From Flavobacteriaceae bacterium GF1 (GTDB lineage: Bacteria; Bacteroidota; Bacteroidia; Flavobacteriales; Flavobacteriaceae), in assembly GCA_009797885.1 (NCBI GenBank), contig WNKP01000007.1, positions 186,001 to 250,000 on the forward strand: a stretch of 64,000 bases of DNA, written 5' to 3'. The notes under the pieces are model-generated. The model searched no databases. It was not told where the DNA came from and saw only the letters and a program-made list of their open reading frames with translations. Both the position numbers and the translations under genes were made by a program. This document shows positions 35,109 to 48,359 of this stretch, in pieces (positions within the stretch are counted from its first letter, which is position 1; each line of letters opens with the position of its first letter).

Positions 35109-38100
35109 ATGCGGTTACGATTGTTGAGGCGACATATTGTCATTTTCCTATTGGCCATACCGGCCTATGCTTGGAGCCAAGCACTTAATGGCTTTGAGCA
35201 TCTTTCCATATCGGATGGTCTGTCCCATAATGAAGTACAGTGTATAGTACAGGACAAAAGCGGGTATCTATGGATAGGCACCTATGATGGCCTAAACCGA
35301 TATAATGGATGTTCATTTGATATTTTTCAGAAAGGAAGTGGAGATGATTCCGGTTTGCCCGATGGCAATATTTACTCCCTATTGGTTGATCGTTACGGAG
35401 CACTATGGGTAGGTTCCAAATACGGAGGATTAGCGCGATTTGACCCCGAAAGGGAAACTTTCGAAAAATGGCAGCATGATCCCAATGACCCTAACAGTAT
35501 ATCGGACGACTGGATTTTTACCATGTACGAGGATGCCATGGGCCAAATCTGGATAGGGACAAGCTACGGCTTGAATAAAATTGTATTCCAGGAGTTCCAG
35601 GAACCAAACCAAAGGGAAATAGCTTTTTTTGAACAGTACCACCACACCCAGGATCCCGACCGAAAGATTCAGAAGATAGTACAACAAGGAGATATCCTTT
35701 ATTTGGCCACTTCTGAGGGAATACTGCTTTTTGATACTCAAAAGAAAGCTTATATATCATCCTATCTGGACCATGACAATCATACTTTTAAAGACAAGAA
35801 CGATATTTCTGGGGGTATACTCTTTGCTAAACAGGACAGCTTGATCGTAGGGTCCCATTCAGGAATCTACCATCTTGATCTTAAGGATTCCAGTTTAGAA
35901 CCTATGACGTTTGATTTTCAGGATAAAATGGAGATTTCACGTGTTAATGCCATTCTGGAAGACAAAGGGAAAAACCTCTGGATTGGTTTTAATGACGGTT
36001 TGGTCCTTTACGATACAAAAGAACACCATTCCCAACGGTTTATGCACGATTTCAGAAATCCGGTATCCCTTTCGGACAACCAGGTCCTGGCACTCTATGA
36101 GGATGCCTCTGGAATTGTTTGGATAGGAACAGGGGCAGGGGTTAGCAAATATGATCCCAATAAGGCAAAGTTCCCCCTCACCCATCCTGAAATAAATCTT
36201 GCCCCGGATCAGTATAAACGATCGTTTAAATCGGCCTTTACAAGTTCTGATGGGCATGATTGGATCGGAAACGACAGTGGACTTTATGAGTTTTCCGGGG
36301 ATACTTTGATCAATTCCTTTGTTCCGGATGACAATAGGTATTCCATTTCCAGAGGAGGTGTCACTAAAATCATGGAAATGGACAATGGGGATATGATGGT
36401 GGCCACATGGGGTGGTGGACTGAACCGTTTGGATCGAAAAATCAATCGTTTCCACCGCTATGGCTATTCTTTCAGCGAAGGGATGAACACCAATGATCAA
36501 TTGAGTTGTTGTATAACCGATATGCTGAAAGATGCCAACGGAACCCTATGGTTAAGTACGCTTTACGGCTTTTTGGAAAGGTTTGATAGTCAAAAGGATA
36601 CTTTTAAATCGTTTAAACTAGGGGAGTGGATATGGGACATTTGGTTGGATGAAGGTTCTCAGGAACTGTTTGCGGCAACCGAGAACGGCCTGGTTCTGTT
36701 TGATGTCAATACGGGGCAAATGGAGCATTTTGTCCACCAGGAAGACAATCCCAACAGTATAGGCCATAACCGTACATGGGCCGTTTTCAACGATTCCAAC
36801 AACAGAATTTGGGTGGGCACATATAGAGGATTGGAAGCTTTTGACCGTACCACCAACACCTTCACCCTCCATACGGATACTACATTAGATCACCTTTCGG
36901 TCTATACCATTTTAGAGGATGAAACGGGCAATCTGTGGTTAGGGACACAAAACGGTATTTCCAAGTTTGATCCCGATCTCAATGTATTTAGACATTTCAC
37001 GGCGGAAGACGGTGCCTATCCAGAATCCAAATGGGCGTATAAAAGTCCAGATAAAAAAATGTTCTTTGGGGGCGCTGGGGGTTTCAATCATTTTGATCCC
37101 ACTTCCATTAAAATCAATGAGCGTATTCCAGAAGTCGTTTTTACAGAGTTCAAAATTTTCAACGAATCCGTGGAACTGGGAGCTGATTCACCCCTTCAGC
37201 GCGCGATCAATGTTTCCGAACAAATAACCCTTCCGTATCGATCCAACGTGTTTTCCATAGAATTTGCCTCACTCAATTATTCTTCTACATCCAAAAACAA
37301 CTATGCCTATAAACTTGAGGGTTTTGATGAGGACTGGAACTATTCGGGTGCCCGAAGAACGGCCAGCTACACCAATCTAAACCCTGGGGAGTACCTGTTC
37401 AGGGTAAGGGGATCAAATAATGACCACGTCTGGAACAATGAAGGTGCATCCCTAAAAATCCATATTACACCACCTTTTTGGGGCACATGGTGGTTTAGGA
37501 TTTTGTTGGTCGTTTTTATCCTTGCCATTGTTGTAGTATGGTTTCAAGTCCGTTTCCATCAAATCAGGAAGAAGAAGCTTATCCTGGAAAAATTGGTCCG
37601 AAAACGTACCGGGGAACTGGAAATCATAAACCGATCACTAGAAGAACAAAAACAGCAGGTATTGGTCAAAAACGAGGCTTTGGAAGTTATGGCGAAGGAA
37701 GTGCGGCGATCGTCCCAAATGCGAACCAATTTTTTTACCAATGTCTCCCATGAATTCCGAACCCCCCTTACTTTGATCATAGCCCCACTGGAAAAGCTTC
37801 TGGAAGAAACCAGGAACAGTCCCAAAATAAACAGGTCCATAGAACTGGCCACTAAGAATTCGCGAAGGTTGCTTAGGTTGATCAATCAATTGTTGGACGT
37901 TTCCAAAATCGATGGCGGTTTTATGAAATTAAAATTGGAAGAGGGAAACATAACGGCCCTTATTGAGCAAATATTCCACTCCTTTAATTTTAGGGCGGAA
38001 AAACATAATATTCAATACAAGTTTTTTTCGCAATTGGATAATTCCCGGTGCTATTTTGATGCCGATAAATTGGAAAAAATAATTTATAACTTGATTGACA

Positions 38101-39314
38101 ATGCGTTTAAGTTTACTCCCGAAGGAGGAAAAATTGAGGTAATCCTCAAGGGGGAGTATTGCAGGGGCGTACTGAAATATGTAAACGTAAGCGTTTCGGA
38201 TACCGGTTCCGGGATAAGACCGGAAGATTTGAAGGTTATATTCGAAAGGTTTGTGCGAAGTGAGGAATTTAGCAATTGGGAAGGTACATCCACTTCCACA
38301 GGGATAGGACTCTCTTTGGCCAAGAGTTTGGCAGAGCTGCACCGTGGGGGCATTACCGTAAAGAGTAGGGAGAACGAGGGCGCCCTTTTCACTGTTAAAC
38401 TGGGAGTTGATAGGAACATGTATTCAGATAGTCGGATTGAGGTCAATCCGTTGCAGGATACTAGCGAAGGAAGCATGGAACTCGCGGATTATGAAGATTA
38501 TGTGGACACACTTTCAGAAAACCGGATGAACGAACTGCACCAGGATTCGCCCTTGATCCTTATCGTTGAGGACAATGTGGAACTTGGTCATTTCATGGCT
38601 ATGGAATTATCCTCGTCTTATAATGTTATTGTGGCACGTAATGGACGAGAGGGCTGGAAAAAATGCAGACAAAACCTTCCCGATATGGTAATTTCGGATA
38701 TCATGATGCCCGAAATGAATGGAATTGAGCTTTGCAAACGCATTAAGGAAGACGCGGGCACCTGCCATATTTTAACTATTTTATTGACTGCCAAGGCCAC
38801 ATATGAAGATCAAAAGATCGGATTGGGGATAGGGGCGGACGGTTATGTTACCAAACCCTTTAATATAGCGATACTTCACCTTAAGATCCGAAACCTTTTA
38901 CAGACCAAGGCCAATATGCAGAAAAGGTTAAAGAAAGGTGGGTTCGCCCCGGAACTTATTGTTGGGGACCGTAGGGACAAGGTTCTTTTGGATGCCTGTG
39001 TTACTTTGGTGAACGAAGAAATAGCCAATCCTGATCTGGACGTCCATTTTTTATGCAAGAAAATTGGAATAAGCCGTTCATTACTTTATTCCAAGATGAA
39101 GGCCATCACTGGAGAGTCCGTAAATGCCTTTATCCGGAACATAAGGCTTCAGGCGGCCGCGGAAATCCTACTCCGCTATCACGATAGGCCTTTGGGACAG
39201 ATTTTTACGGATGTGGGCTTCTCCAATCAATCGCATTTCAATAGGAGCTTTAAGGAAAAATATGGCGTACCCCCCCAAAAATACCGAAAACTCCATCTTA
39301 ACGAATCGGAATGA
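35109..39314 (+). CDS. hybrid two-component system regulator (HTCS)
   Basis: A 1401-residue one-chain sensor, kinase and activator of the type that controls glycan-use loci in Bacteroidota. After a signal peptide (ends AWSQ) come two-component propeller repeats (YLWIGTYDGLNRYNG, LWVGSKYGGLARF and others) to about 720, a Y_Y_Y domain, and a membrane helix near 795-815. The cytoplasmic part has HisKA with H881 in VSHEFRTPLTL, an ATPase domain (IIYNLIDNAFKFTPEGG), a receiver with D1197 in MVISDIMMPEMNG, and an AraC-type helix-turn-helix at about 1300-1398. It faces away from susCD, its probable target; the ligand is likely an oligosaccharide in the periplasm. Confidence 0.95.
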   Translation: MRLRLLRRHIVIFLLAIPAYAWSQALNGFEHLSISDGLSHNEVQCIVQDKSGYLWIGTYDGLNRYNGCSFDIFQKGSGDDSGLPDGNIYSLLVDRYGALWVGSKYGGLARFDPERETFEKWQHDPNDPNSISDDWIFTMYEDAMGQIWIGTSYGLNKIVFQEFQEPNQREIAFFEQYHHTQDPDRKIQKIVQQGDILYLATSEGILLFDTQKKAYISSYLDHDNHTFKDKNDISGGILFAKQDSLIVGSHSGIYHLDLKDSSLEPMTFDFQDKMEISRVNAILEDKGKNLWIGFNDGLVLYDTKEHHSQRFMHDFRNPVSLSDNQVLALYEDASGIVWIGTGAGVSKYDPNKAKFPLTHPEINLAPDQYKRSFKSAFTSSDGHDWIGNDSGLYEFSGDTLINSFVPDDNRYSISRGGVTKIMEMDNGDMMVATWGGGLNRLDRKINRFHRYGYSFSEGMNTNDQLSCCITDMLKDANGTLWLSTLYGFLERFDSQKDTFKSFKLGEWIWDIWLDEGSQELFAATENGLVLFDVNTGQMEHFVHQEDNPNSIGHNRTWAVFNDSNNRIWVGTYRGLEAFDRTTNTFTLHTDTTLDHLSVYTILEDETGNLWLGTQNGISKFDPDLNVFRHFTAEDGAYPESKWAYKSPDKKMFFGGAGGFNHFDPTSIKINERIPEVVFTEFKIFNESVELGADSPLQRAINVSEQITLPYRSNVFSIEFASLNYSSTSKNNYAYKLEGFDEDWNYSGARRTASYTNLNPGEYLFRVRGSNNDHVWNNEGASLKIHITPPFWGTWWFRILLVVFILAIVVVWFQVRFHQIRKKKLILEKLVRKRTGELEIINRSLEEQKQQVLVKNEALEVMAKEVRRSSQMRTNFFTNVSHEFRTPLTLIIAPLEKLLEETRNSPKINRSIELATKNSRRLLRLINQLLDVSKIDGGFMKLKLEEGNITALIEQIFHSFNFRAEKHNIQYKFFSQLDNSRCYFDADKLEKIIYNLIDNAFKFTPEGGKIEVILKGEYCRGVLKYVNVSVSDTGSGIRPEDLKVIFERFVRSEEFSNWEGTSTSTGIGLSLAKSLAELHRGGITVKSRENEGALFTVKLGVDRNMYSDSRIEVNPLQDTSEGSMELADYEDYVDTLSENRMNELHQDSPLILIVEDNVELGHFMAMELSSSYNVIVARNGREGWKKCRQNLPDMVISDIMMPEMNGIELCKRIKEDAGTCHILTILLTAKATYEDQKIGLGIGADGYVTKPFNIAILHLKIRNLLQTKANMQKRLKKGGFAPELIVGDRRDKVLLDACVTLVNEEIANPDLDVHFLCKKIGISRSLLYSKMKAITGESVNAFIRNIRLQAAAEILLRYHDRPLGQIFTDVGFSNQSHFNRSFKEKYGVPPQKYRKLHLNESE

Positions 39315-39683: not shown

Positions 39684-41036
39684 TTATTTGAGCTTGAATT
39701 CGGTGTTCCCTGCGTCCAGTATAAGCACCCAATCTTGGGCAGATGGAGAAGTAAAGTCAATACTACCCTTGGTGGAATAGCTACCCAGATAATCCACTTT
39801 GCCATTAATAGGGTTATACCAATAGGCGTCAAGCTTTTTGCCCTTTAACGTTTGTGGATTTACGGTAAAAGAACGTTGTGATGGCACGTAAGACAAAGCA
39901 AAACCCCCGTCATGGGCTATCACTGAAGTTGCGTAGTCATTGGTGGCGTAGGTGTCGTTTCCCCCTACGATCAGGCTACCTGAAATATCCGGCCTTACTT
40001 TAGTCCACGGCAGGGAATGGAACAAATTCTTAAGATGCACCAAGGTTATTGCACCCTTAAAATTCCTGAGGTTCTCTTTCCATTCAGGTGGGATATTCCA
40101 ATTGGCCGAGCCATAGGCATGGCCTGCACCTCCCGAAAAAACGGACCAGTAGGCCTGCTTTCGTATTTGCAATGGACTTCCCATAGGGTCGTGCTCCCTT
40201 TCATAGGTGGATTCGCCAAGGAAAAACGGTCTTTTGGGAGTTTTTTGATACTCTGTATAGCCTACCTCATACACATCTGGTTGCCTCCAGTTCCACGCTT
40301 TATTAAAACCCCGGAAGTAGGTGTAGATCATGGAGACGTCCAACCAATCCGGATTGTCCCAAACATCGGTGCTGGAGTGTGTTGATGCGGCGTGATAGGT
40401 CATTAATTGGTGTGGGGCATTTGCCTTTAGGGCTTTGGCCAATGCATCATACTCCTCAACGCTGGTTTTGGGGTCATTGTCTCCACCAATGATCCAAAAT
40501 ATGTTATCAAACTTCCCAAACTTTTGGGCCAGATATTCGCCAAACCATCGGCTTTTATCTATCCCATTGTTGTTCATAAATTCATTACGGCCACCATATC
40601 CCTCCCCGCAGCACCCGGCCCATAAGGGAGCAATGGCAATTACCAGGTTCAGGGATTCTGCTATTTGAATAACTTCCTGAACATGTCCCATATATTCGTC
40701 ATTTACGGTACTAAAATCATTTGAGTCCGAAAAGGGACGGCGTCTTGCGATGTCCGTGTTTCCGTCAAAGCCAGTGAGCATGGTCTGTACCACGGTAAAT
40801 CCGTTTCTCTTTCGATCCTCAAGATAGTGTTGGGCTTCCTCAAGGTCTAGCTTTAAAAACAGCTTCCAGGCCGTATCCGCACTATAGAAGAAAGTCTTTC
40901 CCGATTGGTCTTCAAAATACCGTTGGTCAGGAGAAATCCTAAGTGGAAAAAGATAATCTTGTTCTTGGCCGCAAACCGTTGATATCCATAGTAAAAAAAA
41001 TAAAACTATTTTAAAATATGATGTTTTAATTGCCAT
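39684..41036 (-). CDS. apiosidase-like glycoside hydrolase (DUF4038 / GH140 type)
   Basis: A 450-residue secreted protein (signal peptide ending TVCGQ). The TIM-barrel domain opens with FFYSADTAWKLFLKLDLEEA, then shows WIIGGDND with candidate catalytic Asp186 and LGESTYE with candidate Glu275, the Asp/Glu pair expected for this clan. A small C-terminal beta domain, formerly called collagen-binding (about 365-450), ends DWVLILDAG. Characterised GH140 enzymes release apiose-linked side chains of rhamnogalacturonan II. The gene converges with the HTCS and is near susCD, so it may act on the same glycan. Specificity is inferred from family only. Confidence 0.85.
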   Translation of the reverse strand: MAIKTSYFKIVLFFLLWISTVCGQEQDYLFPLRISPDQRYFEDQSGKTFFYSADTAWKLFLKLDLEEAQHYLEDRKRNGFTVVQTMLTGFDGNTDIARRRPFSDSNDFSTVNDEYMGHVQEVIQIAESLNLVIAIAPLWAGCCGEGYGGRNEFMNNNGIDKSRWFGEYLAQKFGKFDNIFWIIGGDNDPKTSVEEYDALAKALKANAPHQLMTYHAASTHSSTDVWDNPDWLDVSMIYTYFRGFNKAWNWRQPDVYEVGYTEYQKTPKRPFFLGESTYEREHDPMGSPLQIRKQAYWSVFSGGAGHAYGSANWNIPPEWKENLRNFKGAITLVHLKNLFHSLPWTKVRPDISGSLIVGGNDTYATNDYATSVIAHDGGFALSYVPSQRSFTVNPQTLKGKKLDAYWYNPINGKVDYLGSYSTKGSIDFTSPSAQDWVLILDAGNTEFKLK

Positions 41037-41554: not shown

Positions 41555-41600
41555 GAATTGGCTCTTTTTTGGTCTTAGAATTGGCTCTTTTTTGGTCTTA
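41555..41600. repeat. perfect 23-bp tandem duplication
   Basis: The 23-mer starting GAATTGGCTC occurs twice in tandem at 41555-41577 and 41578-41600 without mismatch. The second copy contains the TAA stop (41600-41598) of the minus-strand oxidoreductase, so each unit begins with a TAA on that strand. It looks like a recent slippage duplication. Confidence 0.9.
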
Positions 41601-42926
41601 TACTTGGGTCTTGCCTGGAACGGGAACCGGGTAATCCCCATTGGCCAAAGGCAAAATTGGGGGTACACTATTGAAGTCCGTTTCGTCCGTATAGTCAAAT
41701 AGCTTTACTTCAGATGCGATTGCGTCCTCCCATTTCATATTCCTTCCCGACCATGCGGACATACGTCCAAAGGTTCCGGTCATGCATGATTTTGCTGCAT
41801 AGAAGGCGTCATTTATGTATTTTTTCTTGTTGTAGATGCCTTCCAATAAATCCTTTTGTACAATTCCATGAACTCCATGAAAGTTGCCATCGTATTCCTT
41901 TTTGCTGTCAAAAATTAGCTTTCCTTTGCTGTTAAAGGCCTGCGCATTGTCTCCGGTAATGACAACCCTACCTTTTGTGCCATAAAACCATTCCCCGTTC
42001 TTGACCGAACAATTGGGAAGATTACGGCTATAACTATGAACCGAGATATCATTCTCATATATAAAATGGGATGATATGCTATCAAAGCCACCAAGGGAGC
42101 CCGAATATAGTTTCTCCGATATTTTCCCGCCGTGTGCCGTTACCGTCAATGGGTTCTCCTGTTGCAATGCCCAGTTTACAACATCAATATTGTGTACATG
42201 ATATTCTTCTATGTTACCGCCGCTGACCCATGAGAACGAACGCCAATGCCTGTTTTGAAACTCCATCTCTGTCCACGAGTCCTCTCGTGGCCTGCTCAAA
42301 TCGCCAATGGGACCGCCAAACCAGTAGCACTCCGCAGAAAATATATCCCCAATAATCCCATCATGTATGAGCTCCACTATTTTTTGGTAACCCGGGGAAT
42401 ACCTTCTTTGCAGCCCTCCTGCCACATAAAGTCTGTTCTTTTTGGCCAAAGCTGCGGTTTCCATGATCTTTTTGAATCCATAGGCATCCACACTTACGGG
42501 TTTTTCAATAAAAACATGTTTTCCTTGTTTAATGGCCTCTTCAAACATAATGGGTTTGTATGCCGCCGGTGTGGTCAAAAAAGCAATATCGCAAAGGGCA
42601 ATTGCTTTTTTGTAGCCTTGAAACCCCGTAAACCTGGTATCCTCGGTGACCTTCAACTGCGTTTTGTCCTTCACCCTTTCCACCAATGCGTTGTAGTGGA
42701 GATCGATCCTATCCGAAAACAAATCGGCCATGGCAACGAGTTCTGCAGGCACTCCGCAGTTAAGGGCGTCCAATACGGCCCCCGTTCCCCTACCTCCACA
42801 ACCAATTAGGGCAATTTTGAGCCTATCCTGACCTTGGGATCCAATATTTGCCCCCAATATACCGGGTGCGGCCAACGCCCCTGTGCCGGCTATGGCTGTT
42901 GATTTTACAAATTCGCGTCTTTTCAT
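41598..42926 (-). CDS. Gfo/Idh/MocA-family oxidoreductase, Tat-exported
   Basis: A 442-residue NAD(P)-dependent oxidoreductase with a twin-arginine leader (MKRREFVKSTAIAGTGALA). The Rossmann loop KIALIGCGGRGTGAVLDAL lies near residues 36-54, and FIEKPVSVDAYG near 140 holds the catalytic-region lysine. GGNIEEYHVHNIDVVNW matches the substrate-side segment of the paralogue at 16533-17876, and the two share a closing PVPGKT-type end. It is the last gene of a four-gene operon after the FGE-like gene (33-bp gap). The substrate is unknown, probably a carbohydrate. Confidence 0.87.
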   Translation of the reverse strand: MKRREFVKSTAIAGTGALAAPGILGANIGSQGQDRLKIALIGCGGRGTGAVLDALNCGVPAELVAMADLFSDRIDLHYNALVERVKDKTQLKVTEDTRFTGFQGYKKAIALCDIAFLTTPAAYKPIMFEEAIKQGKHVFIEKPVSVDAYGFKKIMETAALAKKNRLYVAGGLQRRYSPGYQKIVELIHDGIIGDIFSAECYWFGGPIGDLSRPREDSWTEMEFQNRHWRSFSWVSGGNIEEYHVHNIDVVNWALQQENPLTVTAHGGKISEKLYSGSLGGFDSISSHFIYENDISVHSYSRNLPNCSVKNGEWFYGTKGRVVITGDNAQAFNSKGKLIFDSKKEYDGNFHGVHGIVQKDLLEGIYNKKKYINDAFYAAKSCMTGTFGRMSAWSGRNMKWEDAIASEVKLFDYTDETDFNSVPPILPLANGDYPVPVPGKTQV

Positions 42927-42959: not shown

Positions 42960-43916
42960 TCATTCCAAAAACGATGAGAAAAAGGCTTCCGCTTCTTCTT
43001 TTGTGGGTTGCTTCAATGGGCGTACCAAACGAAAGCCCACAAATTCGGAATCGGTGTTCCACCAAAAGCTCTTGGGGATTTGTGGGTCGCGCGCTTTCCA
43101 CTTATCGATGGAACGCTCACGGTTTGAGGTTCTACAGCTAAGGGCATCATCCCTAAACGAGCCTCCCCTCACCGAACGGGGGTTCAATGCTGTTGGTTTT
43201 CCCCAGGGGCCTTTTTCATTCTCCTTGATGGTCGAATAAAAATCCGGGTAATATTGATCCAGGCACCATTCGGCAACGTTTCCATAGATATCGTAGAGGC
43301 CATTGGGGTTGGGTTCCTTTAATCCAACTTCATGAAACTCGCCATTGGAGTTTTCACTGTACCAGGCATAATCCTTAAGTTTTCGCTTCTTCTTACCAAA
43401 AAAATAAGGTTCGTCCATTCCCGCTCCTGCGGCGTATTCCCATTCGAGTTCCGTGGGAAGGCGATAAAAAATACCTGTTCTTTGGTACAACCATCGGCAA
43501 TAGGATAGTGCACTGTATTGGGTCATTCCAACAGCAGGCTCCCTATCCTTGTCCCCAAGACCTTTTGAAGGATCTTCATACGGGCTGGAAGGTCTTGAAA
43601 TCACTACATCGTTCATTTCTCCGCTGGGCAGCAAGTCTCGCGTTATATCCCTAAAAAGAAGAAATTCACCGTGGGTCACTTCAAATGCACCCATCCAGAA
43701 AGAGGAAAGCTCCACTTGTTTTCTGGGCAATTCATCGGTTTCCGCGTTTTTATCCTTTTTTGATGCCCCAATCGTAAAAATGCCTCCCTCGATGGGAACC
43801 ATTTTAAATGTAATCTCCGTACCGTCGATTCGTTGGTCATATTCCTTAAAATCATCCTGCCCGAAGGCGTAAGCACTCCAAAGTGCCATTCCGAATAAAA
43901 AAACTGTTATTTTCAT
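42960..43916 (-). CDS. formylglycine-generating-enzyme-like (SUMF1 domain) secreted protein
   Basis: A 318-residue protein with a signal peptide ending YAFGQ. The SUMF1/FGE fold is marked by FTIGASKKDKNAETDELP, WMGAFEVTHGEFLLF, RLPTELEWEYAA, NVAEWCLDQYYPD, VRGGSFRDDALSC and VGFRLVRP. True FGEs have two copper-binding cysteines in this last region. Here only the second (SCRTSNRER) remains; the first position is aspartate. It is therefore unlikely to be a standard sulfatase activator, and no sulfatase is encoded in the window. Related domains serve in gliding and T9SS proteins. It starts only 3 bp after the yceI-like gene. Confidence 0.85.
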   Translation of the reverse strand: MKITVFLFGMALWSAYAFGQDDFKEYDQRIDGTEITFKMVPIEGGIFTIGASKKDKNAETDELPRKQVELSSFWMGAFEVTHGEFLLFRDITRDLLPSGEMNDVVISRPSSPYEDPSKGLGDKDREPAVGMTQYSALSYCRWLYQRTGIFYRLPTELEWEYAAGAGMDEPYFFGKKKRKLKDYAWYSENSNGEFHEVGLKEPNPNGLYDIYGNVAEWCLDQYYPDFYSTIKENEKGPWGKPTALNPRSVRGGSFRDDALSCRTSNRERSIDKWKARDPQIPKSFWWNTDSEFVGFRLVRPLKQPTKEEAEAFFSSFLE

Positions 43917-43919
43917 TGA

Positions 43920-44519
43920 TTAGGATTGCTTTATAAATGTTAAATCCAATTGAATGGTGATATCATCATCGGTGGAAAGCTGTCCAAAAAAAGCTGTTGG
44001 TCGCTCAATATTGAAAGCCGATAGTTTTAAAGGCTTGCTCCCCTGCATTTTTAAGGTTTTCCCGTCATTGCTTAGTTGTGCCTTAACGTTGACATCTATG
44101 TTTTTTTCTTCTCCCGCCATTTTCAATATGCCATGGAACACCATGGTCACTTCATTGCCATTTGCTTCCGTGACCTCATTTGAGATGGCCGCATAGTTTA
44201 CTTGGGGATACTGCTCAAATTTTAGGGCGTTTTGAACCTTTTTGTCCATGATGGGGCCTCTTCCACCGGTCATTTTATCAGCTGGTGCCGAGAATGTCAG
44301 TTTAGAGATGAATTTAGAACCCAATTCCAGGGGAACTGAATCATTCACTTGCAGTTCGCCCTGAAATCCCTGAACGTCCAGTTGCCAGTCGCTGACATTG
44401 GAAGAACCGTCAACATGTATTTTGGTACCTTCCTCATCAAGAATAAAGATACTCTGTCCATTGGCTAAGGAGCTTAACGTAATGAACAATGCCGTGAAAA
44501 TCATTTTAGTTTTGGTCAT
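43920..44519 (-). CDS. YceI-family periplasmic lipid-binding protein
   Basis: A 199-residue exported protein (signal ending LANGQ). The lipocalin-like YceI fold is indicated by IHVDGSSNVSDWQLDVQGFQG, then DKKVQNALKFEQYPQVNY near residue 95, FHGILKMAGEEKNIDVNV, and the final MQGSKPLKLSAFNIERPTA. YceI proteins bind polyisoprenoid or other amphipathic ligands in the periplasm. It is the second gene of the operon headed by apbE. In combination with ApbE a redox or quinone-linked role is possible but unproven. Confidence 0.87.
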   Translation of the reverse strand: MTKTKMIFTALFITLSSLANGQSIFILDEEGTKIHVDGSSNVSDWQLDVQGFQGELQVNDSVPLELGSKFISKLTFSAPADKMTGGRGPIMDKKVQNALKFEQYPQVNYAAISNEVTEANGNEVTMVFHGILKMAGEEKNIDVNVKAQLSNDGKTLKMQGSKPLKLSAFNIERPTAFFGQLSTDDDITIQLDLTFIKQS

Positions 44520-44575: not shown

Positions 44576-45568
44576 TCATTTAACATCCTCCAGTATTGGA
44601 AATGATTCACTTTTCAGGATAATCCCATCTCTGGAAAACAATATAAAATCGGTGTTCTTTTCTTTTTTTGTTATAGCCTCAATCAATTTTGAATCTTCGA
44701 CAATATTCAAGGTCGACGCCAAATAATCGGCAGCTACCGCATTATCCGCAATTACGGTGGATATCGTGTTATGGGTAACCGGTGTCAAGGTTTTTGGATC
44801 GATGATATGCGAATACCTACGCCCTTTTATTTGTCTAAACCGATAGGTGCTTCCTGAGGTTGCAATTGCCTGCCCGGATTTAAGTTTTACGTAAAAACCC
44901 AAACGGGCATCCGGTGAAACACTTATGGGCCAATACGGACTTTCCGGGGGGCTGCCACAAACCCTGATATCCCCTGCCGCTTCAACCAAGAAATCTTCAA
45001 ACCCTTGGTCATACAAAAACAGGTACACTTTGTCAATGATATATCCTTTTGCGATTCCGCCCAAATTCAATGTTATGTTGCTGTTTATTTCCAGACGAAG
45101 TGAATCCATCCTAATCACAGCATTGGAGAACCCGACCGAAGTTCGCGCTTTTTTCAACTTGCGCTTTGATGGTAACCGTTTCTCCCTGGCCGCCTTGTTC
45201 CAGATATCGATAGCCGATTGAATGGAAATGTCAAAATATCCTTCACTGTTTTCAAAAGCCTCCCGGCTACGAATCAATAAGTTTACCAAATCGGTCGGTG
45301 GGGCAACAAGGGTTTTGGATGCATTCAATCTGCTCAGGTGACTATCGTTTGAATAACTGCTGAATATTTCAACCAAGGAATCCACAAGTTGATAGGCTTC
45401 TTCTATTGGGGCCAGCACCCCTTTGTCATCTTCTGAATAGATCACGATCCTAAAATCGCCCCCCATTTTTTCCCTGTTAAATTCAATGCGCTTTTCTTGC
45501 GCGTTTTCATGTGCAAATGAAAATGCCGTGGCCAGGACTGGAAGCAAACAGACATATTTTAGTTTCAT
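44576..45568 (-). CDS. apbE: FAD:protein FMN transferase, ApbE family
   Basis: ApbE covalently attaches FMN from FAD to a threonine of partner proteins outside the cytoplasm. Family motifs are present: NLGGIAKGYIID, VEAAGDIRVCG, AIATSGSTYRF, YSHIIDPKT and VIADNAVAADYLAST, the last with the magnesium-binding Asp. I place the start at ATG 45568, giving MKLKYVCLLPVLATAFSFA as a normal signal peptide; ATG 45577 is an alternative, and an extension to 45607 would need a TTG. No FMN-binding-domain partner is seen nearby. Upstream lie three 11-bp-spaced heptamers, the presumed operator. Confidence 0.9.
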   Translation of the reverse strand: MKLKYVCLLPVLATAFSFAHENAQEKRIEFNREKMGGDFRIVIYSEDDKGVLAPIEEAYQLVDSLVEIFSSYSNDSHLSRLNASKTLVAPPTDLVNLLIRSREAFENSEGYFDISIQSAIDIWNKAAREKRLPSKRKLKKARTSVGFSNAVIRMDSLRLEINSNITLNLGGIAKGYIIDKVYLFLYDQGFEDFLVEAAGDIRVCGSPPESPYWPISVSPDARLGFYVKLKSGQAIATSGSTYRFRQIKGRRYSHIIDPKTLTPVTHNTISTVIADNAVAADYLASTLNIVEDSKLIEAITKKEKNTDFILFSRDGIILKSESFPILEDVK

Positions 45569-45642
45569 TGCCAACATAGCGATCTGAAATAAAAGGATTC
45601 TTGACAATTGCTCTTAAAGATATTGATGGCTTTATAAATAGA

Positions 45643-45671
45643 CCTTACACAAGCCTTACACAGACCTTACA
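45643..45671 (-). promoter_or_regulatory. candidate SARP operator: three heptamers at 11-bp period
   Basis: On the minus strand TGTAAGG occurs at 45671-45665, 45660-45654 and 45649-45643, exactly 11 bp apart with 4-bp spacers. A TATTTATA element follows within 2 bp and resembles the -7 box (TAnnTTTG, partial). SARP-type regulators bind direct heptamers with 11-bp spacing on one DNA face close to the -10 region. The site is about 75 bp from the apbE start and about 190 bp from the divergent regulator gene, so apbE is the likelier target. Confidence 0.6.
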
Positions 45672-45860: not shown

Positions 45861-48359
45861 ATGAATGAAATGAATGATTACTGTACTCATAGATATAGGC
45901 GGTTTGTCCCCACCGTATGTGCCATAGTCTGCATGCTGTTCTGCAGATTGGATCTAAAGGCCAATAACATTACCAGATATTCCTTTGCCATTGGGGAATT
46001 TTCAACAAGGGTGGGCTTGAACGATTACTTGGAGTCCCTGGTAAAAATGCAAAATCCCGGGCTTTCACTATCACTTCAGATCAAAGCGACCAATGGGGCA
46101 ATGCATGTGGTAATGCAGGACTCCATCGAAATGCCCTTTTCCAAGGTACTGCGCGAAATTGATAGCTATCTGACACAAAGAAGCATGATATTTCCGTTAT
46201 TTATTGATTATGATGGGAACGAGGAAAGCTTTGTCGGAGCATTGGAAGAATACGGTCTTTTAGATCAAGTATTCGTGTTGCCTGATGACGGAGTATGGCC
46301 GGATATCGATGACCTCATACGGAACAAAAGAAAGCTCATTGTTTTTAACACATCAAACAATGCGGTGGCAAGCAGGTTTTGGGCCAATTTCAACAAACAT
46401 GTGTATGAATATCCCTTGCGTACCTCTGTTATAAGAAAAGGCGAATCGGTTTGGAACGGCAATGGCCAAACACAACGGTTCATGTCGCTGAAAAGTTTCA
46501 CCAGACCTTTTTTGAACACAAATAGTTTCAACGATGACTCGTACAATATAAACACAAATGCCTACCTTCTTGAGCATTCCCTGGAGTGTTGGGAAAGAAC
46601 CGGTAAGGTGCCCAATTTTATTTTTTTTTCAGACAATAGATCGGGAGGCCAGATCAGAAGGTTGACCGAACTGCTAAACAAATACCCCAGAACACATGGG
46701 ATCGTGACTTTCAACGGGGCCGTGCTAAGCCAACTATCCTGGAAGCACAACAAACAGTCATTGACCCACGGGATGTTCACTTTCCCGCTCCAAGAGAACG
46801 CGGACATTTCCCTTACCCCTGTTAAAAGTGGATACCAATTTTCGCCCAAACAGTTTCCGTTGCGTGCAGACGTCCCTGGTCCGCATCTGGAATTCGTAGG
46901 GAAGCAATCAGAAATCAACAAAGGAATTTCTGCGTATTACAAGTTCGATAATACGCTAAAAAATGCCGTCCTTCCTTTTCAGGAACATGAAGGAGGAGTG
47001 TTTGTTAATGACCCGGAGCGGGGAAAGGTGTTAAAACTTGAAAACAGATCATTTCTGGAGTTGGACGATGTGGAAAAATATAAAATTGTAAACAGTAGTT
47101 TTACGATAAGTATTTACGTTAAGTTCTCGAGCCAGGAGGATCATGAAGATTATTGTATCCTGGGCAGCAATACCAATCTATACCGCAAAGGCTTGCATAT
47201 CAATATTCGAGAAGGCAAGCCTTACTTTGGTTTTTATACCAACGATATTTCTTCTTCAGATATCTTACATCCATCAAGATGGTATCATATAGTTGCGCGC
47301 TACAACGTCGAAAACGGTGAACAGAGCATTTTTGTAGATGGGAAAAAAGTTGGCGTGTCTTGGAACCACCCCTCCTTTATAGGGGGAGGTCCTTTGCTTC
47401 TAGGGCACGGGATTCAACAGGAGAACTACATCGATGGCCTACTGGATGATTTATACATATGGAACAGGGCGTTAAGTGATGAAGAAATAGAAGTAGTTAG
47501 CATTAGAAGTATTGAAAACATAAATCAAGGGAAATGGATCAAAATCACGGTTGTGGTTTTACTTGCCCTTTTGTTGGGAACCGTTTTGTTTATAGGGATT
47601 GTGCAAAAGAGGTTGTCAACAAAAAATAGTTCGGATGTCCCGGAAGTCACAGGCTCCATTCACCTGTTCGGTGGGTTCAAGGTCCACAATACTACTGGAG
47701 AGGACATTACCCCAATTTTCACGCCAAAGAACAGAGAGCTTTTTTTGCTATTACTTTTCCATACGATCAAAAATCCAAAAGGTATTGCCAAGGATGAACT
47801 GACACAGATACTATGGGGGAATCTTGCACGTTCAAAAATATCCAACAACAGAAGTGTTTCTTTTAACCGGCTCAAAAAAGTATTACGGCATTTTGATGAA
47901 ATCAATGTTGTTTTTGAAAACAATTTTTGGAAATTGGACGGTGTTTTAGCCGTTCCCTGTGATTATAAAGAGGTGTTCTCATTAATTCAAAATGATGATG
48001 CATCATTGCATCATTTTATTCCCTATATCAAGAAGGGCAAATTTTTGCCGGAAATTCAAAAAGAGTGGCTTCTGGATTTTCGGGCCGCTTTCAACTTTGA
48101 GCTGATGGACAAGTTGCTTTTTCTGATAAAGAAAAACGAAGATGAACCTGAAGACATATACTTGGCTTGCCACTATGTCCTGGAACTGGATGACCAAAAT
48201 GAAACAGCGCTGTTTTATTTAATGCGTAACATGCTTCATTCCGGAGGTAGTAATAAGGCTAGATTTATATTTGATAAATTCTGCAAGACCTACAGATTGA
48301 TAAACGCTTCGGATTTTCCCTATGATTTCGATTCGTTCGTACAGGCCGACTATTCTTAG
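45861..48359 (+). CDS. transmembrane SARP-type regulator with PI-PLC-like and LamG ectodomains
   Basis: An 832-residue protein I read as a one-component membrane sensor. Residues 16-36 are hydrophobic. About 40-330 resembles a PI-PLC X-domain barrel (MPFSKVLREIDSYL, WPDIDDLIRNKRKLIVF), but the positions of both catalytic histidines appear changed, for example VVMQDS near 83-88. A LamG jelly roll follows (GISAYYKFDNTLKNAV at 353; GLLDDLYIWNRALSDEEIE). One membrane helix lies at about 560-582. The cytoplasmic part has an OmpR/SARP-like winged helix (SIHLFGGFKVHNTTGED, FTPKNRELFLLLLFH, LTQILWGNLARSK) and a helical BTAD-like region to the end. No kinase or receiver is present. It diverges from the apbE operon. 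Confidence 0.75.
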   Translation: MNEMNDYCTHRYRRFVPTVCAIVCMLFCRLDLKANNITRYSFAIGEFSTRVGLNDYLESLVKMQNPGLSLSLQIKATNGAMHVVMQDSIEMPFSKVLREIDSYLTQRSMIFPLFIDYDGNEESFVGALEEYGLLDQVFVLPDDGVWPDIDDLIRNKRKLIVFNTSNNAVASRFWANFNKHVYEYPLRTSVIRKGESVWNGNGQTQRFMSLKSFTRPFLNTNSFNDDSYNINTNAYLLEHSLECWERTGKVPNFIFFSDNRSGGQIRRLTELLNKYPRTHGIVTFNGAVLSQLSWKHNKQSLTHGMFTFPLQENADISLTPVKSGYQFSPKQFPLRADVPGPHLEFVGKQSEINKGISAYYKFDNTLKNAVLPFQEHEGGVFVNDPERGKVLKLENRSFLELDDVEKYKIVNSSFTISIYVKFSSQEDHEDYCILGSNTNLYRKGLHINIREGKPYFGFYTNDISSSDILHPSRWYHIVARYNVENGEQSIFVDGKKVGVSWNHPSFIGGGPLLLGHGIQQENYIDGLLDDLYIWNRALSDEEIEVVSIRSIENINQGKWIKITVVVLLALLLGTVLFIGIVQKRLSTKNSSDVPEVTGSIHLFGGFKVHNTTGEDITPIFTPKNRELFLLLLFHTIKNPKGIAKDELTQILWGNLARSKISNNRSVSFNRLKKVLRHFDEINVVFENNFWKLDGVLAVPCDYKEVFSLIQNDDASLHHFIPYIKKGKFLPEIQKEWLLDFRAAFNFELMDKLLFLIKKNEDEPEDIYLACHYVLELDDQNETALFYLMRNMLHSGGSNKARFIFDKFCKTYRLINASDFPYDFDSFVQADYS

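Follow-up and report, generated by a model that had tools for sequence, protein, structure and literature searches.

The gene at positions 45861..48359 of the window, the whole 64 000-nucleotide stretch of the Flavobacteriaceae bacterium GF1 genome analysed here, probably encodes a transmembrane one-component SARP-type activator of the adjacent operon for exported sugar-oxidising enzymes. Its periplasmic ectodomain, comprising a degenerate PLC barrel, a β linker and a LamG domain, probably binds a sugar or a sugar-oxidation product, and one helix would connect this ectodomain to a cytoplasmic SARP-type winged helix and BTAD region. The winged helix–BTAD module is proposed to bind head-to-tail on 7 bp direct repeats spaced approximately one helical turn apart; these repeats would sit at the −33 region of a σA promoter, where BTAD would recruit RNA polymerase. 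In most LamG-type relatives the promoter is predicted to drive a Gfo/Idh gene (some GH109-like), often together with a 3-keto-glycoside hydrolase gene, and in the clade of the target a divergent ApbE–YceI–FGE–Gfo/Idh operon.

Domain architecture and family of the regulator

The window lies within G000:C60 of a 5.28 Mb genome. The regulator comprises the following features.

45861..48359 (+): regulator gene, 832 amino acids; open reading frame with an ATG start
45861..45962 (+): N-terminal signal peptide, approximately residues 1–34, recognised by eye
45978..46634 (+): degenerate PI-PLC-X-like domain, approximately residues 40–258, catalytic His absent; from BLASTP, profiles and alignment
46683..46895 (+): conserved β-rich linker segment, approximately residues 275–345; from alignments, without a database match
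46926..47501 (+): LamG/ConA-like jelly roll, approximately residues 356–547 (Pfam 411–543)
47529..47615 (+): single transmembrane helix, residues 557–585, from hydropathy
47649..47900 (+): OmpR/SARP-type winged helix, approximately residues 597–680, from family profiles
47901..48356 (+): BTAD/TPR-like region, approximately residues 681–832, from profiles, with weak Pfam BTAD matches in two relatives

At the level of family profiles, this layout bears out the original prediction of a SARP module tethered by one helix to a degenerate PLC-like domain and LamG outside. The predicted order of PLC-like domain, LamG, helix and winged helix/BTAD also stands, except that it omitted the conserved segment at approximately 275–345 between PLC and LamG, which may be CNA-B/carboxypeptidase-regulatory-like but gave no database match.

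The target is 88% identical over residues 1–832 to a gene of a Croceivirga MAG (JANQSA010000007.1; L088), which has the same divergent upstream genes. Croceivirga belongs to the Flavobacteriaceae and the MAG is classed in the genus of the window, in which one of ten genomes contains the target gene. The hydrophobic segment 14–34 exceeds the hydropathy cut in L088 and falls below it in the target. A search of genome contigs with the target protein alone returned one relative. Of the 299 Flavobacteriaceae genomes sampled, 25 encode a relative of the C-terminal module, with a LamG or a propeller ectodomain; this count includes G113, whose sole contribution is a BTAD-AAA protein lacking this architecture. 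The order sample (family members included) gave one genome in 246, the window's own, and the phylum sample gave 33 of 395 Bacteroidota genomes at E ≤ 0.001, SARP-like proteins of other build included; only part of the first-look candidates was scored in the wide genome samples, and the counts are possibly low. SARP/BTAD proteins turned up across the Bacteroidota, including one elsewhere in the target genome, and are therefore not confined to Actinobacteria. The one in the target's own genome (L135; G000:C60:46819-47457) is a separate BTAD protein of 269 residues that matches Trans_reg_C weakly.

The 33 loci fetched comprise 26 of LamG type, PF13385 being found in all 26, six others and L087, a BTAD-AAA protein. 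Five of the six (L058, L073, L076, L078 and L085) have kelch matches; L075, cut by a contig end, has none. In a tree of the module, which has several long branches and an unsure deep order, the 45 rows of the membrane family separate from ten other Bacteroidota SARP-like proteins with support 100/99, and the target clade groups with L070, also at 100/99. Ectodomain labels change five times on this tree compared with 25.9 times when shuffled. The propeller label covers 19 rows, 13 with kelch matches; L075, L123, both rows of L128 and the short forms of L129 and L130 were labelled by position and sequence. Outside the Flavobacteriaceae, L128, L129 and L130 carry tandem pairs of regulators of the same kind, side by side.

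In the ectodomain, Pfam places LamG (PF13385) at residues 411–543 of the target with an E value of 1.4e-20. Pfam and NCBIfam scans of the target protein gave nothing above cut-off besides LamG, and phmmer matches of the target in the PDB were confined to the LamG region. The PLC-like part of the target has no direct Pfam match; residues 70–254 match a PF00388-positive secreted PI-PLC-X protein of a relative in BLASTP (E = 2e-12), and a profile of eight PLC-like regions matches the secreted PI-PLC-X protein at 98% (E = 1.9e-13). PF00388 itself matches two family members weakly, at 0.019 and 2e-4, neither of which reaches the curated cut-off, and a PF00388 search of the target's own genome returned no match, an uninformative outcome as the control was equally silent. 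Assignment to the PI-PLC-X fold follows sequence homology to the X domain, the two top PDB entries for the PLC-like profile being PI-PLCs at an E value of just 0.03. None of the 26 LamG-type members has a His at either aligned catalytic column, in line with the barrel without catalytic histidines that had been foreseen, and the two His of a PI-PLC enzyme are absent; the first column sits at the end of the signal peptide, where the alignment is doubtful, and at the second there is another residue in nine members and a gap in 17. The N-terminal part is, as judged from its sequence, a decayed PI-PLC-X domain. The linker and LamG persist through the family even where the barrel has shrunk or vanished. 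Because several relatives without most or all of the barrel still have LamG and the Gfo/Idh linkage described below, the barrel is not indispensable, and it may be accessory or a relic. In genome G034 the propeller-type regulator L058 directly follows a secreted PI-PLC-X protein on the same strand (L019), in which both histidine motifs still look intact; no other standalone relative of the PLC-like part of the target was encountered.

One segment of the target exceeds the hydropathy cut, residues 557–585, and the membrane helix anticipated between residues 555 and 585 was thereby located. A hydrophobic helix precedes the module, over the same cut, in 30 of the 32 membrane-type members; L074 and L086 fall below it, as does L126 from outside the Flavobacteriaceae, and L086 has instead a segment inside the module. 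With a DNA-binding domain and a transmembrane segment in one chain and neither kinase nor receiver, the protein has the build of a one-component transmembrane transcription regulator. Signalling across the membrane would proceed without proteolysis. A membrane-held latent factor, from which signal-triggered proteolysis frees a soluble winged helix–BTAD fragment to act on DNA, is improbable: the single transmembrane segment and the juxtamembrane linker ahead of the module would suit it, but nothing positive points to it and no protease was found among the few neighbours scanned.

The assignment of residues 597–832 to a winged helix and BTAD fared differently at two levels. Pfam finds neither domain in the target protein itself, but a profile of 31 modules aligns by hhalign with five other BTAD proteins, themselves obtained in searches with the family profiles, at 99.4% (E = 2.8e-21, 228 columns) over winged helix and BTAD. 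Four of these five have Pfam BTAD at ≤8.7e-9 and the fifth, L087, at 3.9e-13. Against the PDB the module profile matches a designed TPR protein (8.5e-4, with no single significant stretch), PhoB-family winged helices (E = 0.0012) and AfsR (E = 0.09 over 25–220, amid unrelated entries of similar E); the Pfam BTAD matches of two relatives, at 0.0016 and 0.04, are under cut-off. The SARP arrangement of a winged helix followed directly by BTAD is accordingly seen in the family profiles and not in the target alone with Pfam. That the C-terminal module is instead a protein-interaction scaffold is most improbable; the lack of a direct Pfam DNA-binding match in the target would fit such a role, but the profile match spans winged helix and BTAD jointly and a putative operator is linked to the gene.

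Gene neighbourhood and the probable ligand

The +1 gene on the same strand encodes a Gfo/Idh/MocA oxidoreductase at 19 of the 26 LamG-type loci, after a gap of 60–459 bp, and at none of the six others. PF01408 was confirmed in all 19, against a background of approximately 0.5%, estimated from 320 matches in 17 genomes at an assumed gene length of 1.15 kb, and a twin-arginine-like leader was recognised by eye in the +1 Gfo/Idh genes. The six belonging to one clade are GH109-like (Glyco_hydro_109_C, ~1e-56). At 13 of the 19 loci the +2 gene falls in a 3-keto-glycoside hydrolase (PF06439) cluster, members of which occur in 15 of the 26 LamG-type loci, and four loci also have a GMC oxidoreductase and a gluconate-2-dehydrogenase-subunit-3-like protein (one of each checked). 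The regulators L073, L075, L076, L078, L084, L085 and L086, of propeller type or in some cases LamG type, have sulfatase-like or SusC-like genes (named by eye) nearby in place of Gfo/Idh.

A +1 Gfo/Idh gene is absent from seven of the 26 LamG-type loci, those of the target's clade included. The common partner of the target, L060 and L088 is a divergent operon, and their downstream genes vary. In the window this operon reads as follows.

44576..45577 (−): ApbE family protein, encoded by the leading gene of the putative target operon (PF02424, 3.4e-59)
43920..44519 (−): YceI-like protein (PF04264, 5.3e-9)
42960..43916 (−): FGE-sulfatase (SUMF1-like) domain protein (PF03781, 3.3e-38)
41598..42926 (−): Gfo/Idh/MocA oxidoreductase with a twin-arginine-like leader, by eye (PF01408, 3.2e-8)

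Further downstream the window contains a two-domain 3-keto hydrolase and two Gfo/Idh genes, which are absent from that place in L088. An apiosidase-like protein is encoded at 39684-41036, and a few genes away, at 35109-39314 (+), lies a hybrid two-component system with its full set of domains (propeller, Y_Y_Y, HisKA, HATPase, receiver and AraC).

The Gfo/Idh, 3-keto-glycoside hydrolase and GMC oxidoreductase genes beside the LamG-type relatives resemble the periplasmic 3-ketoglycoside route as set out in passages of one report (PMC9007349). Of the ligands first put forward, a lipid headgroup, a glycan or peptidoglycan, the glycan is favoured, or a sugar, because the neighbours are mainly exported sugar-oxidising enzymes; our best guess from these neighbours and LamG is a sugar or an oxidised sugar. 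The lipid option is kept on account of YceI, as the YceI family is lipid-binding. In a rival reading the PLC-like barrel would be the main sensor, of an inositol phosphate, a glycolipid or a lipid headgroup, and sugar oxidation would be secondary. Besides YceI in the divergent operon, this reading draws on the preservation of the barrel, which is best in the target's clade and in L070, L077, L079–L081 and L083; it is rather unlikely, as the barrel is eroded or lost in many relatives that retain LamG, the operator and the Gfo/Idh linkage.

Putative operator and promoter

Between the regulator and ApbE the following elements were found.

45643..45671 (no strand assigned): putative operator made of three CCTTACA copies spaced by 11 bp, read as TGTAAGG on the ApbE strand; from a repeat scan and comparison
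45633..45641 (no strand assigned): conserved TATAAATAG element between the operator and the ApbE-side −7 box; from comparison
45615..45622 (−): putative σA −7 box TATCTTTA, separated from the operator by 20 bp in the ApbE direction; from the TAnnTTTG consensus

SARP sites are described, in the sections available of a review, as heptamer direct repeats, classically at 11 bp, overlapping −35 (PMC10972967), and the −7 consensus TAnnTTTG is taken from an excerpt of PMC9723704. In the comparison of three related genomes the CCTTACA triple is retained in L025/L088, and L060 has two exact heptamers and a third with one change; the 4 bp spacers differ in L060 while the heptamers persist. The triple is a single site in the 5.28 Mb genome at ≤3 mismatches, its backward control gave none, and window shuffles contained no such triple. 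Repeats at 11 bp with p < 0.02 were found in the three upstream gaps of the target clade and downstream of L078 and L082. SARP-like heptamer direct repeats at approximately 11 bp near a promoter are thus present and conserved as candidate sites; adjoining the gene, they lend indirect, sequence-level support to the earlier claim that the protein acts on DNA directly from the membrane. Control of the target's +1 serine hydrolase by such repeats was considered and rejected, its gap being silent (p = 0.83 at 11 bp and 0.98 at 12 bp). A promoter scan with the σ70 consensus was also set aside, with 15 found compared with 14.1 in shuffles; that consensus is unsuitable for this phylum.

In other clades the gap before Gfo/Idh contains 7 bp direct repeats at 12 bp, TTACCCC in two clades and TTCACCC in a third; the target operator has the opposite sense to the TTAC core of these relatives. 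Repeats at 12 bp with p < 0.02 occur in 12 of 31 downstream gaps (11 of the 19 before Gfo/Idh, plus L070) and in one of 32 upstream gaps (L070). The upstream gap of L070 holds a 12 bp triple repeat of different sequence (TATTAAT type) before the regulator. In the 903 kb of fetched loci TTACCCC-N5-TTACCCC is present ten times, on every occasion between the regulator and the Gfo/Idh gene; the looser TTACCC-N6-TTACCC is present 13 times, 12 of them before Gfo/Idh and one inside the L122 regulator gene. Across the 299 genomes the stricter motif has 19 sites, ten at regulator loci and nine elsewhere, and is found in 10 of 25 regulator genomes versus 8 of 274 others (Fisher 7e-8), whereas its backward control is found in 7 of 25 versus 76 of 274 (p = 0.57). 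A hand count gave the backward control, CCCCATT-N5-CCCCATT, 86 matches in 83 of the 299 genomes, well above the number for the motif; because this control is the commoner overall, the 14-letter motif speaks by position and not by frequency. When the motif is combined with a −7 box, 16 sites remain in the 299 genomes, 12 of them at regulator loci (backward control, seven sites), and 12 of 25 regulator genomes compare with 3 of 274 others (Fisher 2e-12). These counts assume one 299-genome sample behind the regulator, motif and motif-plus-box searches, and the p values overstate the case because the motif was derived from the loci counted, these loci share ancestry and the pattern of each clade was fitted by eye.

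In 21 of 22 operators, that of the target included, a −7-like box matching at least five of six letters lies 19–22 bp past the proximal repeat, compared with a background of 13%. In clade A the box is without its A, and an equally good box lies at offset 0 in four of six loci; the clade C locus L082 is without a −7-like box. The same protein and operator could hold the neighbouring operon repressed until ligand binds, and the closeness of the repeats to the promoter, together with a third, degenerate repeat in relatives that would extend to approximately 9 bp from the −7 box, is compatible with repression. This is unlikely, however, as the proximal strong repeat ends 20–21 bp upstream of the −7 box, a position typical of activators. 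BTAD is, moreover, the activation domain in known SARPs as summarised in parts of PMC10972967. We therefore infer activation by the DNA-bound regulator.

Relation to known systems and implications

ToxR/CadC-type regulators (TTRs) combine in one chain a transmembrane segment, an OmpR-like winged helix inside and a sensor outside. The target shares all of these, but its order is reversed, with the sensor N-terminal and the DNA-binding domain C-terminal, and it differs in its BTAD and its LamG/PLC ectodomain. The main text of a TTR survey, in the portions available, mentions neither SARP nor BTAD (PMC10269533). Like the target, members of the SARP family (AfsR, ActII-ORF4 and DnrI type) are described, in the extracts at hand, with a winged helix followed by BTAD and heptamer repeats at approximately 11 bp by the promoter. 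Small SARPs, according to the available sections of PMC10972967, have an N-terminal DNA-binding domain and no membrane anchor, whereas the module of the target is C-terminal to a transmembrane helix and a large ectodomain, and no antibiotic cluster was noticed.

Two further systems of the Bacteroidota are comparable. SusR-like regulators of Bacteroides, compared here by description only from parts of one paper, also control glycan genes from the membrane with a periplasmic sensor, a cytoplasmic C-terminal DNA-binding domain and direct-repeat sites; their repeats are 67 or 77 bp apart, unlike the 11–12 bp of the target and its relatives, and the SusR DNA-binding domain is described as unlike others (PMC3878776). 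SusR4 is BT2160; in passages of PMC9007349 BT2157 is named a 3-ketotrehalose hydrolase, and from their locus tags BT2160 and BT2157 are probably neighbours. HTCS likewise connect periplasmic glycan sensing to DNA binding in a single chain, but with kinase, receiver and AraC domains; Pfam found no HisKA, HATPase, receiver or AraC domain in the target, which is not an HTCS. SARPs, TTRs, SusR and HTCS are thus already known, and their combination in the target is without description among the literature matches listed. Those matches, to open-licence PMC papers, contained no account of this architecture or of SARPs in Bacteroidota, consistent with the earlier statement that no named system is known to have it, and, besides the SusR-like BT2160, no regulator of periplasmic oxidative glycoside breakdown.

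We lean slightly towards the view that Bacteroidota possess, beside HTCS, SusR and sigma/anti-sigma systems, a further class of single-chain periplasm-to-DNA sensors, namely transmembrane SARPs with swappable ectodomains (pseudo-PLC/LamG or lectin/β-propeller). One branch would serve exported Gfo/Idh, GH109-like and 3-keto-glycoside enzymes, with a readable operator code that changes along with the DNA-binding domain (TTACCCC, TTCACCC and TGTAAGG) at a fixed 20–21 bp from the −7 box. If so, a module known from antibiotic regulators, SARP, would have been carried into membrane sensing in the Bacteroidota. Experiments could then start from a short DNA site with a fixed promoter geometry and from an operon that is the likely target, and the regulation of periplasmic oxidative glycoside breakdown would become directly testable.
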